From Aureococcus anophagefferens (lineage: Eukaryota > Sar > Pelagophyceae > Pelagomonadales > Pelagomonadaceae), in assembly GCF_000186865.1 (NCBI RefSeq), contig NW_008705566.1, positions 1,543,699-1,607,698 of the forward strand: a stretch of 64,000 nt of DNA. Reading direction: 5' to 3'. The number at the start of each line of letters is the position of its first letter. The first letter of the stretch is position 1. The position numbers and the translations under genes were made by a program. Below, one piece after another: positions 4,899 to 64,000 of this stretch. The notes under the pieces are model-generated. The model searched no databases. It saw nothing but the letters and a program-made list of their open reading frames with translations, and was not told the DNA's origin.

Positions 4899-5017
4899 CG
4901 CTGGCAGCGTGTGCTGCACAGCGCGGCGGGGGACGCCTCGCGCCCCAACTCGACGCTGCTTTGCAAAGTTGTGAACATCAATATGACGAGCTTGAAGTGG
5001 TGCAATTGCAAATAGCA

Positions 5018-5132
5018 AACGATGGGCGCGACGCGCGCGGGCAGCCCGCAGGAATAACAAACAAGCGACAACATAGCCAACGATGGGCGCGACGCGCGCG
5101 GGCCGCCCGCAGGAATAACAAACACGCGACAA
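5018..5132. repeat. Direct duplication of 54 bp in a divergent promoter
   Basis: Copies at 5018-5071 and 5079-5132 differ at two positions by eye and share aacgatgggcgcgacgcg and aggaataacaaaca. The second copy abuts the ATG of the WW gene at 5132. The first copy has the same sequence but no ATG at that point. The region lies between the divergent SET (minus) and WW (plus) starts, so it is probably promoter or 5' UTR. Confidence 0.85.
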
Positions 5133-6343
5133 TGACCTGGCACAAGGAGTACGACGAAACGTACCAGACGCACTACTACTACAACGACGAGACCGGCGAG
5201 AGCCGCTGGGACGCGCCGGCGGACGACGACGCCGACGCCGAGGGCCTCGTCGCGCCGGCCGACGACGACGCCGCGACGCGCGTGCGCCGCCGCGGCTCCT
5301 GCGACGACGACGACGCGAGCGACGGCGACGCGTCCGATGCGTCCGACGACGGCGACGAGCTCCTCGCGGAGAGCCGCGCGTCCGCGGCGGGCGACCGCGT
5401 CTACGCGGAGACGGAGGCGACGATGAAAGCGTCGCGCGCCGGCGCCCGCACAACGCGTCTCCTGTCGACCGACGGCCGCAGGTACACGTGCATCTTCTAC
5501 TTCCACGCCTGCCTCTGCGAGGGCCCCTTCGCCGCGCTCGAGGCCGCGGGCCGCGCGGTCTGCTACGCCGCCGCCGCGCGTCCACCCGCGTCTTCCTGTT
5601 TTTTTTCCCGGGAAAAAAAAACCGCCGCCGTACTAGGGCGTCCTGCTGCTCCCGTTCGCCTGCCGGCGCGCGCGGCGGAGGCAGGCCGGGCGCTACCTCC
5701 GCGAGGCCGCGCTCTTCGCGGCCGCGGCGGCGTCGGCCGCGGTGCCCGGCTGCGTCGCGCGCTTCGCGTACGGTGGCTTCGACGCGGACGCGGACGCCTG
5801 GGACCTGCGGCCGCTGCCGACGTGCCTCGGCTACGTCGACGCCAGGGCAGCAAAAGAGAGCGAAATTCCAAACTTCAAAGCTTCATATCTCGGCCGTTTT
5901 CCACTCGTTTTGGCTGATTTTTGGACGAGCGATCATCTCTCGGAGCGGTCTCGAAGCATGGATGCTTTTTTCGGAACGCGCGCGCGCGAAACACTCACGT
6001 TACAGCGATGTTGAATCACTCTTTTGCTGCCCAGGTCGACGCGCGGCGCCTCTTCGTCGTGACCTGCGGCCAGGGCTCGGGCGCGAAGAACGCCGTGTTC
6101 TCGCGGCGCGACCGCTCGGACGACAGCTGCCCGGGGACCGTCGCGCACCCGCCCTACTGGGTCCTCGGCGCGGCGCGCGACGGGTGCTGGGCCTGCCTCC
6201 GCGGCGCGGCGGCCGCGGGCGCGACCGCGGCGCGGGCCGCGGCGGACGCGCTCGTCGAGTTCGCGGCGCGGCCGGCGAACCCGCCGCGCGCGTTCCCCGC
6301 GCGCTTCGCGGAGGAGCCGCCGGGGGACGTGGAGCTCGTGTAA
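5132..6343 (+). CDS. WW-domain membrane protein, three exons, one intron an introner
   Basis: Proposed exons are 5132-5575, 5637-5834 and 6035-6343, giving 316 residues. The N-terminus is a WW domain (Trp3, YYYN, Trp and Pro in SRWDAP), which binds proline-rich ligands. An acidic linker follows, then two or three hydrophobic Cys-containing segments (CIFYFHACLC, VLLLPFAC, LFAAAAASAAVPGC) and a Cys-containing tail. Intron 1 (61 bp) is inferred as GC-AG because the frame changes at a stop and gtactag acceptor at 5636; its donor is the less certain part. Intron 2 is exactly introner copy 1 plus one target-site copy, GT-AG. All exon joins keep frame. The function is unknown. Confidence 0.7.
5843..6034 (+). 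mobile_element. Introner copy 1 (hAT-like MITE acting as an intron)
   Basis: The 192-bp element has terminal inverted repeats CAGGGCAGCAAAAGAG (5843-5858) and CTCTTTTGCTGCCCAG (6019-6034), 15 of 16 positions complementary. Perfect 8-bp target-site duplications GTCGACGC flank it at 5835-5842 and 6035-6042. Splicing from the GT at 5835 to the AG at 6034 removes the element and one duplicate, restoring Gly-Tyr-Val-Asp-Ala. The body is visibly less GC-rich than the host exon. It aligns without gaps to the element at 34930, with about 24 mismatches by hand count. It has no coding capacity, so it would be non-autonomous. Confidence 0.93.
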
Positions 6344-32471: not shown

Positions 32472-33902
32472 TCACTCGCCCATCCACTTGGGCGCGCGCC
32501 ACGTCTTGCCCGCGTAGACGGCGTCGTCGCCGAGCTCGGACTCGATGCGGAGGAGCTGGTTGTACTTGGCGAGGCGCTCGCTGCGGCAGGGCGCGCCCGT
32601 CTTGATCTGGCCCGTGCAGAGGCCCACGGCGATGTCGGCGATGTACGTGTCCTCCGTCTCGCCGGACCGGTGGCTCGTCATGATGCCCCAGCCCGCCTGC
32701 TTGGACATCTTGACGGCGTCGATGGACTCGGAGACGGAGCCGATCTGGTTGACCTTGAGGAGGAGCGCGTTGCAGGCGTCCTCCTCGATGGCGCGCTTGA
32801 TGCGCGACGGGTTCGTGACGGTGATGTCGTCGCCGACGGACTGGACCGTCGCGCGGACCTTGGGCGAGAAGTTGGTCCAGGCGGCCCAGTCGTCCTGGTC
32901 GAAGGCGTCCTCGATGGTGACGATGGGGTACTCGGCGCAGAGGTCCGCGTAGAAGTCCGCGAGCTCGGCCGCGGTCATCTTGAGCTTCGGGTCGTCGCGC
33001 TCGTCCGCGGGGTAGAAGGTGCCGAGGTCGTAGCAGTCCTCGCCGTCGACCTTGAACTCGGACGCGGCGACGTCCATGCCGATCTCGCACATGCCCTCGT
33101 AGCCCGCGGCCGTGATCGCCTCCATGACGAGCTCGACGCCTTCCCGCGCGTCGCAGGGCGGCGCGAAGCCGCCCTCGTCGCCGATGAGCGTCGCGTCGCC
33201 GCCGAACTTGTCCTTGATGATCTTCTTGAGCGCGTGGTAGCACTCCGTGCCCACGCGGAGGCCCTCGGAGAAGGAGCTCGCGCCCGTGGGGATGATGAAG
33301 TACTCCTGGAACGCGAGCTTGTTGCCCGCGTGGGAGCCGCCGTTGATGACGTTGAAGGCCGGCACGGGCAGCACGTTGGCCTCGCTGTTGCCCGCGAGGT
33401 CCGCGATGTGCTTGTAGAGCGGCACGCCCTTGGCCGCCGCGCCCGCCTTGGCCGCCGCGAGCGACACGCCGAGGATCGCGTTCGCGCCGAGGTTCGCCTT
33501 GTTCGGCGTGCCGTCGAGGTCGATGCAGAGGTTGTCGATGGCGCGCTGGTCCGCCGCGTCCATGCCGCAGACCGCCGGGCCCAGGACCTCGTTCACGTTC
33601 TTGACCGCCTGGAGGCACCCCTTGCCGAGGTAGCGGCCCTTGTCGCCGTCGCGCAGCTCGCAGGCCTCGTGCACGCCCGTCGACGCGCCGGAGGGCACGG
33701 ACGCGCGGAACATGCCCAGCGACGTGAACATCTCCACCTCGACCGTCGGGTTGCCCCGCGAGTCGAGGATCTCGCAGGCCTTGACGGCCGTGATCGTGCC
33801 CGCGCCCTCGGCGGCCATCGCCACCTGGCGCGGCGTCTGCGACAGCTTGGACGCCGGGGCGAAGGCCGTGGCGCCGGCGAGCAAGAGGAGGGAGGCCTTC
33901 AT
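32472..33902 (-). CDS. ENO: Enolase with secondary-plastid-type presequence
   Basis: The 476-residue enzyme converts 2-phosphoglycerate to phosphoenolpyruvate. Catalytic features are present: [19 protein letters not shown] loop, [47 protein letters not shown] and the SHRSGETED loop. It begins [19 protein letters not shown]: a hydrophobic signal peptide followed by an AFAP motif, the usual cleavage-site signature of bipartite presequences in diatoms and other algae with red-derived plastids. That places it in the plastid and implies a plastid route from 3-phosphoglycerate to PEP. The ATG at 33902 gives this presequence directly. Confidence 0.93.
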
Positions 33903-34048: not shown

Positions 34049-35871
34049 TTAGCGGCCCACGCCCTCCGCGAACTCGTCGCGGTCGATGGTGCCGGAGTTG
34101 TCGAGGTCGATGGCGGCCATGACGTTGTCCAGGAAGATGGGCGACGGCGGCGCGCCGTTGCGCCGCTCGAGCGCGACGGCGACCTCGTCCCGCGTGAGCT
34201 GGCCGTCGCCGTCCAGGTCCAGCTCGTCGAAGCTGCCGAGGCGCCGCCAGAGGCCGTGCGCGTGGAGATACAGGACGCAGTTGAGCATGGGCAGGAAGTC
34301 GTCCTCGGACCCGAGGCCGCCCTTTGCCGCGAAGTCGACGAGGGGCCGCACGTCGAAGATGCCCTTGAAGAGGTTCCGCGGCAGCGCGACGGCGTAGGTT
34401 CTGCGCCGGTCGAGGGGCGCGCCGCCGACGGCCGCCAGCGCGCCGGCGCCGTCGACGTCGCAGGCGTCGCAGAGCTGGAGGAAGCCCCGCTCGTTCGCGC
34501 CCGGCGACCGCGAGTGCGCGACGGCGTCCGCGAGCACGGCCCCCGGCAGGTCGACGACGACCATTTTGGTAGGAAACGGCAGCTCGCGGCGCAGGTCGAG
34601 GAACGAGAGCGCGTCGCCGCCGTAGTCGCGGTCGCCCTTGACGCTGCCCCCGTTGACCGCCGCGGCGTCGCAGCCGAACCAGGCCCGCGTCGCCGTGCAG
34701 AGCGCGGTCCCGACGGACGTCTGCTCGAAGCGCGTCCGCCGCGACGACAGCGGCCCCGCGCCGCGGACGACCTTCTCCGCGTCGAGCGCCGCGAGCATGT
34801 CCGTCTGGTCGGCGCACGCGGCCGCGACGGCCGGGTCCTCGGCGTGGGAGGCCACGTCCTCGAAGGCCACGGCCGCGGTCCCCGCGACGACGTCGAGGTC
34901 GCAGACCGCGGCCGTCGTCGCGTCCGCGCCTGGGCAGGACAAGAGAGCGAAATTCCCAACTTCAAAGGCTCCTAGCTCGGCCGGTTTCCACTCGTTTCGG
35001 CTAATTTTTGGACGAGCGATCATCTCTCGGAGCGCTCTCGACGCGTGGATGCTTTTTCCGGAACGCGCGTGCGCGGAACACTCATGTTGAAGCGACGTTG
35101 AATCACCCTTGTGCTGCCCTGGTCCGCGCCGGCTTTGACGACGGGGCACCGGTCCGTGCCCGCGAGGATGACCTCGTGCTCGTGGCCGCCGAGGATCAGG
35201 TCCACGCAGCCGCTCCGCGCGAGCGCGTCGTCGGCGGCGAGGGACTGGTGCGTGAGCGCGACGACGCGCTCGCAGCCGTTTGCCCGGAGCTCGCGCGCGA
35301 GCGTTTCCGCGGTCGCGAGGCTGTCCGCGATCTCGAGGCCCCGGAACGTGTCGCCGCGGAAGACGCCCGGCTCCGACGTCAGGAGGCCCAGGAGGCCCAC
35401 GCGGCCGCCGAGGACCGTCGCCGTCGCCGCGAGGCCGGGCACGGCCCCCGGCACGTTGCCGTTGAGCACCGCGCCCTCGAACTCGCCGCAGCGCCGCGCA
35501 AGCGCGGCGAGGCCGACGTCGGCCTCGTGGTTGCCGAGGCACGCGAAGTCGACGCCGACGAGGTTGAGCACGCGGACCATGCCCCGGCCGCGGTCGAGGC
35601 CGCTGAGCACGGACGGCGACACGAAGTCGCCCGCGAGCGTCGCGATGGTATGCGGCCGCGTCGCGCGGACGCGGTCCAGGAGCGTCTTCAGCCGCGGCAG
35701 GTGGTCGAGCTCGTAGACGTCGTTGACGGCGACGATGGTCAGCGTCGACGCATCGGCGTCGGTCGCGGCGCGCCGTCGCAGCGGTGCGCGATGGAGTCTC
35801 TGGTGCTGGAGTCTTGGGTGCTGTCGCGTTGCGTGATGTCGCGTTGTGATGTGCCGCGTTGCGTGTCGCAT
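34049..35871 (-). CDS. Metallophosphoesterase/5'-nucleotidase fused to EF-hands, split by an introner
   Basis: Exons 35130-35871 and 34049-34929 (minus) give 540 residues. The N-terminal calcineurin-like phosphoesterase domain has AVNDVYEL, LAGDFVSPS, CLGNHEADVG, ALTHQS and LILGGHEHEV. A 5'-nucleotidase C-terminal-like domain follows (PGAVLADAVAHSRSPG, LPRNLFKGIFDVRPLVDF), then a pair of EF-hands (DLDGDGQLTRDE, DLDNSGTIDRDE). The first metal motif reads NDVY, where relatives usually have D-x-H, so one metal ligand may be missing. The 200-bp intron is introner copy 2 plus one target-site copy. It is spliced GC-AG and restores Lys-Ala-Gly-Ala-Asp-Ala. The start is uncertain; the first 35 residues are His/Arg-rich. 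Confidence 0.8.
34930..35121 (+). mobile_element. Introner copy 2, antisense to its host gene
   Basis: The 192-bp element has ends CTGGGCAGGACAAGAG (34930-34945) and CCCTTGTGCTGCCCTG (35106-35121), 13 of 16 positions complementary. Perfect 8-bp target-site duplications GTCCGCGC flank it at 34922-34929 and 35122-35129. The body is in the same window orientation as copy 1 but the host gene is on the minus strand, so it is read in reverse. On the minus strand, splicing uses GC of the duplicate (GCGCGGAC) as donor and CCCAG at the element end as acceptor. It has no coding capacity. Confidence 0.93.
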
Positions 35872-61880: not shown

Positions 61881-64000
61881 CTAACTCCCGGGGGCGCCGA
61901 CGTGGACGCGGCCGGGCGCCGCGTCGAGGCGCGCGACGAAGCGCCGCGGCGGCGGCGGCGGCGGCGGCTCGTCGACCGCGGCGGCCTCGGACGGGCGCGC
62001 GGGCGGCGCCTCGCGGGCGTCGCGCCGCGGCAGCGTCGCCGGCGGCGCCTCGGGCTCCTCCAAAGCGAAGCGCCGCGGCGTCGACGGCGGCGGCTCGACG
62101 TCGCCGTCGGCGCGCGGCGCCGGCGTCGGCGGCGGCGCGTCGACGTCGCCGCGGCGCGGCGCCGGCTCCTCCGGCTCCTCGAGCGCGAAGCGGAGCGGGC
62201 GCGCGACGTGCCGCCGCGGCGGCGACCGCAGCTCGAGGGCCCCTTCGTAGTGCGCCTCGAGGTCGTGCTTCGACGGGCTCGACGCGAGGTAGACGGCGCG
62301 GTCGAGCGATTCGCGGCCGCTGAGGTAGTCCGCGCGCGCGTCGAGCCGCGTCCCCGCGAACGCCTCCTCGTAGTCGTCGCCCCGCGCCTCCTTGTGCTCC
62401 GCCTCGAAGGCCGGGGCGAGGCGCACGGCGAGGCCGCTCCGGAGCTCCGCGCGGCACGCGCCGGGCGCCGGGGCCCGGCCGAAGGGCTCCTTTTGCCGGT
62501 CGAGGAACGCGCCAAAGGCCGTGCGCCGCTTCGCCGGCGCGCGGCGCGCGCGGGCCGCCGCGCAGACCACGGCGCCGAAGAGCGCGACGGCGCCGGCGGC
62601 GACGGCGGCGCCGAGCGCGCCGAGGCCCGCCGCGTCCGCGGTCTCCGACCGCGCGCGGCGCTCGGGCGCCGACGGCGCGGCCGTCGGCGCCGTCGGCGCG
62701 GCCGCCGGCGCCGCCGACGGCGCGGNNNNNNNNNNNNNNNNNNNNNNNNNNNNNNNNNNNNNNNNNNNNNNNNNNNNNNNNNNNNNNNNNNNNNNNNNNN
62801 NNNNNNNNNNNNNNNNNNNNNNNNNNNNNNNNNCCGCGGCCTCGACGCCGGCGACGGCCGCGACGGCCGCCGCGAAGACGGGCGCCGCGGCCGCGGCGGA
62901 GTCGACGTCGACGCCGGAGAACGTCGCGCGGACGCGGACCTCGGCGGACCCCGCGGCCATCGGCGCGGCGCTCGCGGGCCGCGCCGACGGCGTCGCCGAC
63001 GGCCGGAGCGCCGGCGACGACGACGGGCCTCGCGTCGGCCGCGACGACGACGGCGCGGTCGACGGCGCGGACGACGGCCCGCGCGTCGGCGGCCGCGACG
63101 GTCCGCGCGTCGGCGGCCGCGAGGGCTCCGCGGCGGCGATGGCAGAGGGCGGCGCCGTCGGCGGCGGAGCGGGTGCCGTCGGCGGCGGAGCGATCGCGGT
63201 CGGCGTCGGAGAGATCGGGGTCGGCGTCGGCGGTACCGCGAGCGCCGTCGGCGCCGGCGCGCTCGACGCCGCGGCCGTCGGCGCCGGCGCGAGTGCCGTC
63301 GGTCCCGGCGTCGCGCGCGCGGCCGTCGGCGCCGGCGGCGCCGCGCTCGGCGCGGCGCTCGGCGCGGCGCTCGGCGCGGCGCTCGGCGCGGCGCTCGGCG
63401 CGGCGCTCGGCGCGGCGCTCGGCGCGTAGGTCGACGGCGCGTAGGTCGACGGCGCGTAGGTCGACGGCGCGTAGGTCGAGGCCCCGGCGATCGCCGCGGC
63501 CAGAAGCTCCGCGACGAGCGCCGAGCCCGCCTCCGACGGGTGGAGGCCGTCGTCGTCGTAGTAGCTCGCGCAGTCGCGCCCGCCGTCGCAGCCCGTCGCG
63601 TCGAGCCAGGCCCCGCGCAGGTCGACGAGCCGCACGCGGTCGTCGCCGCGCCGCGCGACGAAGTCCGCGACGGCGTCCGGGATCGCGCCGTTGACGAGGC
63701 CGCGGTCGATGTCGCAGCACGTGCCCACCGAGTGGACGACGGTGACGACGAAGACCAGCGCCAGCGACTTCGCGTCGTCGAAGAGGTCGTCGACGAGGTC
63801 GTCGTAGGCGTCCATGAACTCGTCCGCGTCCCAGGGGAACTTGGAGTCGTTGACGCCGAGCATGATCGTCGCCAGCTCGGGATCGAAGTCCGCCGCGTCG
63901 TCGTAGCGGTGCGTTTTTCCGTAGGCGCGGTCGTCGACGTCGCGCACCGTGGCGCCGGAGCCCCCGAAGTTGCGCACGTCGGCGCCGAGCAGCTCGCCGA
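61881..64000 (-). CDS. SGNH/GDSL hydrolase with repetitive stalk, TM and cytosolic tail (partial)
   Basis: The 5' end lies beyond the right edge; the frame is open to 64000. From there: block II (GADVRNFGGSGATV), block III (ATIMLGVNDSKFPWD) and block V (YDDDGLHPSEAG) of SGNH hydrolases, with Asp and His of the triad present; the block I serine must be outside the window. A stalk follows of four STYAP repeats, about seven PSAA repeats and other Pro/Ser/Ala repeats, then a region FSGVDVDSAAAAAPVF. A 108-bp gap of N comes next, then one TM helix (LGALGAAVAAGAVALFGAVVC) and a tail. It is probably a cell-surface esterase or lipase. The gap means length and frame in the stalk are uncertain. Confidence 0.8.
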   Translation of the reverse strand, partial: GELLGADVRNFGGSGATVRDVDDRAYGKTHRYDDAADFDPELATIMLGVNDSKFPWDADEFMDAYDDLVDDLFDDAKSLALVFVVTVVHSVGTCCDIDRGLVNGAIPDAVADFVARRGDDRVRLVDLRGAWLDATGCDGGRDCASYYDDDGLHPSEAGSALVAELLAAAIAGASTYAPSTYAPSTYAPSTYAPSAAPSAAPSAAPSAAPSAAPSAAPSAAPPAPTAARATPGPTALAPAPTAAASSAPAPTALAVPPTPTPISPTPTAIAPPPTAPAPPPTAPPSAIAAAEPSRPPTRGPSRPPTRGPSSAPSTAPSSSRPTRGPSSSPALRPSATPSARPASAAPMAAGSAEVRVRATFSGVDVDSAAAAAPVFAAAVAAVAGVEAAXXXXXXXXXXXXXXXXXXXXXXXXXXXXXXXXXXXXXAPSAAPAAAPTAPTAAPSAPERRARSETADAAGLGALGAAVAAGAVALFGAVVCAAARARRAPAKRRTAFGAFLDRQKEPFGRAPAPGACRAELRSGLAVRLAPAFEAEHKEARGDDYEEAFAGTRLDARADYLSGRESLDRAVYLASSPSKHDLEAHYEGALELRSPPRRHVARPLRFALEEPEEPAPRRGDVDAPPPTPAPRADGDVEPPPSTPRRFALEEPEAPPATLPRRDAREAPPARPSEAAAVDEPPPPPPPRRFVARLDAAPGRVHVGAPGS
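62726..62833. other. Assembly gap (run of N)
   Basis: 108 undetermined bases lie inside the stalk-coding region of the SGNH gene. The length is a multiple of three, so the frame reads through, but that may be by chance or by gap sizing. Flanks are GCC/GCG-rich repeats, a likely cause of the failure. Confidence 0.99.
63340..63480. repeat. Coding minisatellites of 12 and 15 bp
   Basis: A 12-bp unit (ggcgcggcgctc) repeats about six or seven times to about 63425, followed by four copies of a 15-bp unit (ggcgcgtaggtcgac). On the minus strand they encode PSAA and STYAP repeats of the SGNH protein stalk. Copies are almost identical, so copy number is likely to vary between strains. Confidence 0.92.

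Follow-up and report, generated by a model that had tools for sequence, protein, structure and literature searches.

DNA-transposon introners of Aureococcus anophagefferens have reportedly been described by Huff, Zilberman and Roy in Nature in 2016; they are said to be flanked by an 8-bp target-site duplication (TSD), to carry one splice site and to co-opt the other. MITEs of the hAT superfamily likewise have an 8-bp TSD, CAGGG ends and a TSD preference for nTnnnnAn. According to an excerpt of PMC7789003, the IEs of A. anophagefferens always show direct repeats and constant-length terminal inverted repeats (TIRs), together with canonical splicing motifs, and a passage of PMC9481584, citing Huff 2016, puts their characteristic length at about 210 bp. 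In the sections of PMC9860276 considered here, introners in Aureococcus are described with TSD-co-opted 5' splice sites, an enrichment in genes and a share of GC 5' splice sites of 0 to 50% per family. The same sections describe family 4 of an Aureococcus sp., which brings along both of its splice sites and lengthens the transcript by 12 bp, as well as introners of Symbiodinium, which have TIRs, carry the 3' splice site and obtain the 5' splice site from a TSD of 4 bp.

Here, we describe an introner in a 64,000-nt stretch of A. anophagefferens DNA, referred to as the window in the following, which has a GC content of 71.8%. As the DNA stems from Aureococcus itself, the locus seems to be the published case and not just something analogous. 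It is an instance of a phenomenon that is already known, although the likeness to the published families is one of description. Copy 1, the insertion from which this study started, has TIRs, an 8-bp TSD and the split into one carried and one co-opted splice site in common with the introners reported for this species. Its predicted intron of 200 nt, like that of about 211 nt in a sister family, is close to the length of about 210 bp given in the passage of PMC9481584. By contrast with the canonical motifs mentioned in the excerpt of PMC7789003, 50 of 91 proposed 5' splice sites of the present family begin with GC, a share (55%) slightly above the range given in the cited sections of PMC9860276. 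With family 4, as portrayed there, the present family shares the genus and the 8-bp TSD, but it would co-opt its 5' splice site and add nothing to the transcript. The Symbiodinium introners, as outlined in the same text, resemble it in their TIRs and in the origin of both splice sites, but differ in the length of the TSD (4 bp versus 8 bp).

The element and its host gene

Table 1. Features of the introner copies and their surroundings. Positions refer to the window, except where a fetched genomic locus is named.
Feature	Position	Strand	Basis or remark
Host gene exon 1	5132..5575	+	Weak WW-domain match, 22.4 bits, under the Pfam cut-off of 26.9
Host gene, short ordinary GC-AG intron (proposed)	5576..5636	+	Frame-keeping choice by hand; borders uncertain
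Host gene exon 2	5637..5834	+	Frame model and P0100 alignment
Predicted 200-nt GT-AG intron, phase 0	5835..6034	+	Frame restoration, gapless homologue P0100, coding-frame score (L001)
TSD of copy 1, first duplicate, GTCGACGC	5835..5842	+	Contains the GT proposed as 5' splice site
Introner element, copy 1	5843..6034	+	192 bp, interior orientation A, tips CAGGG...CCCAG
5' TIR of copy 1, CAGGGCAGCAAAAGAG	5843..5858	+	15/16 match to the other end
3' TIR of copy 1, CTCTTTTGCTGCCCAG	6019..6034	+	Pyrimidine-rich; read as a 3' splice site with CAG at its end
Host gene exon 3 with stop codon	6035..6343	+	Frame model and P0100 alignment
TSD of copy 1, second duplicate, GTCGACGC	6035..6042	+	Exonic
TSD of copy 2, exonic side, GCGCGGAC	34922..34929	-	L031
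Introner element, copy 2	34930..35121	-	Same tips in gene sense, interior reversed (orientation B); L031
TSD of copy 2, 5' side in gene sense, GCGCGGAC	35122..35129	-	Proposed GC 5' splice site
Sister introner copies	L065:2011-2213; L086:2523-2724; L016:2804-3007		Ends CTGTGTG...CACACAG

The borders that the first-pass annotation gave for copy 1 are exact to the base (Table 1), and the 16-bp inverted ends with 15 matching positions and the perfect 8-bp duplication that it described are both borne out. The 5' end, CAGGGCAGCAAAAGAG, and the reverse complement of the 3' end, CTGGGCAGCAAAAGAG, match at 15 of 16 positions and differ only at position 2 (CAGGG versus CTGGG), and the duplication is perfect over all 8 bp. 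Removal of the predicted intron creates the phase 0 junction ...CTCGGCTAC|GTCGACGCG... and restores the reading frame at 5834|6035; the exact restoration that had been claimed for the GT of the first duplicate and the AG of the element thus holds at copy 1, as it does at the sampled genome copies. The spliced host model, from which the proposed short intron is removed as well, comprises 316 aa, and retention of the element leads to a stop inside it and a product of 273 aa. From its letters, copy 1 appears to be jumping DNA that, together with eight gene-derived bases, forms a cleanly removable predicted intron.

In a search of 5.8 billion proteins, the only homologue of the spliced host model was P0100, an uninterrupted predicted metagenome protein (38% identity, 80% coverage), which aligns without a gap over the copy 1 junction (DLRPLPTCLGYVDARRLFVVTCGQG / DLRPLPTVCGWVDPRRFCVLSLGQG). 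For the second copy, which lies in a host gene on the minus strand, the predicted spliced product VVKAGADATTAAVCDLDV is present exactly and without interruption in the metagenome protein P0001 (97% identity, VVKAGADATTAAV), a protein with 5'-nucleotidase and metallophosphatase domains for which no viral relatives were found. P0100 and P0001 are known as proteins alone and may stem either from a site without the insertion or from a transcript after splicing, each of which fits the introner model.

The other intron of the copy 1 host gene is probably an ordinary one of 61 nt with a GC 5' splice site and a T8-CCCGGG-A9 near-palindrome inside; an alternative 5' border (5580-5636) broke the frame, and 5576-5636 was used. 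GC 5' splice sites may be common in the A. anophagefferens genome. Immediately upstream of the proposed host start codon, the window contains a 61-bp tandem duplication (5012-5132, 95% alike). Elsewhere, it harbors a tandem repeat with a period of 162 bp (42-827, four overlapping 300-nt matches), an array of a 12-bp unit (GCGCTCGGCGCG) within a GC-rich stretch (63307-63438) and an enolase gene on the minus strand (32475-33902). Apart from evident gene-model differences, the enolase departs from P0104 of A. anophagefferens by two substitutions, and it agrees with a metagenome protein at 472/476 residues. This single gene points to A. anophagefferens, though a nearby strain or a sibling species would fit as well.

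The family in the genome and its predicted splice sites

The genome search for further copies, which had been proposed as a check, covered 49.05 Mb in 86 contigs and returned 1077 full-length CAGGG...CCCAG copies (546 + 531), compared with none for the reversed control pattern. Together with the second copy in the window, these matches show that copy 1 is not a product of chance; they constitute many near-identical predicted introns, whose similarity extends out to both splice boundaries. Three genome searches contributed 30 fetched loci each, ninety in total. The parsed set comprises 91 copies, that is 93 rows (in which one further parse, L014:2409, had been skipped) minus a mis-parsed second reading of L040 and minus L091, which was kept out because it had been fetched for being the exception described below. 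While 29 of these copies came from a pattern demanding the AG, 62 were found by similarity or as neighbours, with the tips not required.

The same check had asked for 8-bp duplications: among the parsed copies, 77 have a perfect one, 12 have one or two mismatches and 2 have more, and the duplicated sequence differs from copy to copy. Two copies with intact ends (L016:1501-1692 and L064:1501-1692) have no matching 8-bp TSD (5 and 4 mismatches); their flanks have possibly recombined. TIRs are present in the parsed copies, as judged from positions 1-16 of both ends. Within copies, the two ends agree at position 9 in 80/91 and at position 11 in 78/91, but at position 15 in only 29/91, and at position 2 they are mismatched in 91/91 (A in 84, G in 6 and C in 1, versus T). 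The element ends in AG in all 91 copies, including 62/62 of those for which the search did not demand the tips. At the start of the TSD, the proposed 5' splice site is GC in 50, GT in 39 and GA in 2; since GC accounts for 78% of GC plus GT in exon flanks, GT is still favoured relative to the background.

The coding context of the insertions was scored with a codon model trained on 2401 window codons. L041 and L044, which lack a parsable core, as well as L022 and L048, which have N in their flanks, were dropped, which left 86 of the 90 for scoring. These represent 85 distinct places, as one place is counted twice, as L037 and as L083. Joined at the predicted splice, the flanks are sense coding in 86/86 scored loci. 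In the 80 loci with confident frames on both sides, both sides are sense in every case and the frame is kept in 79, the only exception being L003. Four extra copies, found with BLAST in the flanks of fetched loci (two in L023, one in L051 and one in L040), are also sense coding, with matching frames. Copies in L035, L048 and L069, the boundaries of which are approximate, have sense sequence on both sides, weakly so on one side of L035; in the L048 and L069 copies, the frames differ between the sides.

Two comparisons argue for splicing of these predicted introns. First, G follows the element in 1076 of the 1077 copies (by subtraction), against a background of 36%; this base is exonic and reflects the target. 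The only copy without a following G is L091:1501-1692, which has the TSD CGCGCGAC and weakly coding flanks. By arithmetic from this one exception, the unspliced share of intact copies is at most about 1%, provided that unspliced copies had background targets. Second, the proposed splice-site end is frozen, whereas the mirror end of the same inverted repeat varies. With CAGGG held at the 5' end, position -2 of the 3' end is A in 1077 matches, T in 0 and C or G in 0 (with gap ranges of 142-172 for the A count and 140-168 for the T count). With the 3' AG held, 217 matches have C or G as the mirror base, position 2 of the 5' end, and another 7 places, with a length of 191-192 bp, have T, which gives about 224 altogether; six further T places with a 197-bp span were excluded as chance overlaps. 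Likewise, the 62 copies found without a tip requirement keep the AG in 62 cases and differ at 5' position 2 in 7. As the copies share descent, these observations are not independent events, but the sampled 5' variants occupy several separate places in the tree order. The comparison is a clean internal control: both ends are found in the same copies, one of them is apparently used in splicing, and only that one is frozen.

T might also be avoided at 5' position 2 because the AG would be concealed in a perfect stem; it is rare yet present at the 7 places mentioned, with C and G counted jointly across the genome.

A sister family, encountered in L016, L065 and L086, comprises elements of 202-204 bp with symmetric CTGTG...CACAG tips, such that AG is found at both ends. 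Its 8-bp TSDs are perfect in two of the three copies, and its interior is related to that of the main family and lies either way relative to the gene in the three fetched loci. The corresponding genome pattern has 339 forward and 341 reverse matches; as most of the listed places match both strands, we estimate about 360 copies.

Mechanism and mode of spread

The first-pass reading of copy 1 as an introner with transposon-like ends is supported both at copy 1 and in the sampled genome copies. The element is very probably a non-autonomous DNA transposon, a MITE-like introner of Aureococcus, that is spliced out together with one copy of its TSD. A transposase supplied in trans would insert it via an 8-bp staggered cut. 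The duplicated target would then serve as the 5' splice site, with the GT, or often GC, at its beginning becoming the intron start, and the outward-reading inverted repeat (CTCTTTTGCTGCCCAG) would provide the AG together with a pyrimidine-rich tract. The spliceosome would excise the element with one duplication copy and leave the mRNA unchanged, and selection would act as a filter, such that the insertions that persist are those in sense orientation with a target beginning with G.

The assignment to the hAT superfamily, made in the first pass, is not supported. The length of the TSD and one CAGGG tip agree with hAT MITEs, but the other end reads CTGGG, and the 77 perfect TSDs do not follow nTnnnnAn, with T at position 2 in 29 and A at position 7 in 13, although position 2 is also shaped by splicing. 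Searches with the hAT transposase models PF05699 and PF04937 and with the KDZ/Zisupton transposase model PF18758 gave no match, and their controls were silent too. With a fit in the size of the TSD and in a single tip, a misfit in the base composition of the TSD and uninformative transposase searches, hAT is a guess. A symmetric CAGGG...CCCTG form, considered as the ancestor, has 0 matches in the genome, so that an origin by one T-to-A change in a standing hAT-like MITE would lack a surviving intact ancestor. Viral carriers were rejected as well: a 16-base end pattern occurs in 36 viral contigs, yet no BLAST alignment of the two elements to these contigs is better than E=0.03, and we took the matches to be chance; an interior 21-mer had 0 matches in viral sequences.

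The filter could also act earlier. Insertion itself may be confined to coding sequence, for example by chromatin or a target preference, besides any later selection; this would be compatible with the transposon mechanism and concerns the filter only, and we consider it possible, though somewhat unlikely. None of the 86 scored loci lies outside sense coding sequence, yet 25-36% of the window scores as non-coding, depending on the threshold, in a crude codon-model estimate that includes introns and UTRs; this near-absence is surprising if insertion ignores genes. Likewise, a non-G target occurs in just 1 of the 1077 intact copies, and the TSDs lean weakly to C at position 8 (41/77, background 0.38, p=0.009, uncorrected across the eight positions). 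However, the genome-wide counts need intact ends, such that decayed non-genic copies could be missed, and selection in a compact genome may remove intergenic copies, too.

By comparison, it is very unlikely that RNA and not DNA was the form in which the family spread, with the excised intron reverse-splicing into new sites as has been suggested for introners of fungi. Sense insertion in coding sequence at every scored locus and the nearly invariant following G would be expected from this route as well. But an excised intron would bring the first TSD copy along, and the first 8 bases would then be common to all copies; instead, they differ, and match the 3' flank of their own copy perfectly in 77 of 91 cases. 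RNA-based spread is disfavoured by this match of each copy to its own flank and not to other copies. The inverted ends, which largely match within copies, speak against it, too: TSDs and TIRs, both absent in the fungal type, are both present here. That copy 1 is an ordinary gene-disrupting MITE, unspliced or restoring the frame by coincidence, is improbable in the extreme, given the frame kept across the predicted splice at nearly all confidently framed loci, the invariant 3' AG opposite a variable mirror base and the gapless homologue P0100 at the junction.

Interior inversion and implications

Behind the same tips, the interiors of the main family occur in both orientations. In a set of 30 copies in map order on one contig (L061-L090, one of them shared with another set), 16 have orientation A and 14 have orientation B. 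On a midpoint-rooted tree of the 93 rows, we counted 6 orientation changes, compared with a mean of about 30 and a minimum of 22 after shuffling. An orientation that is random at each insertion is not supported by this difference, which indicates that the orientation is inherited, with few flips. Furthermore, since position 2 is mismatched in every parsed copy while positions 9 and 11 largely match, it may act as a direction switch, with CAG being live and CTG silent. The near-absence of intact copies outside sense coding sequence despite these inversions would suggest that transposition is aimed at coding sequence. Combined, these points outline a direction-coded introner, both ends of which would read outward as 3' splice sites, with position 2 (A or T) picking the live end, an interior inverted several times behind fixed tips, and transposition aimed at coding sequence instead of being purged elsewhere. 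We regard this combination as speculative and rather unlikely.

Because the mechanism has been published, the copy 1 locus alone adds one example to it. The mirror-end test, the inversion of the interior and the bound on unspliced copies may be additions to the published work. Introners belong to the small number of routes to a new intron that can be read directly, and because intact copies are so scarce beyond sense coding sequence, it is directly testable whether this family is targeted to coding sequence or purged elsewhere.
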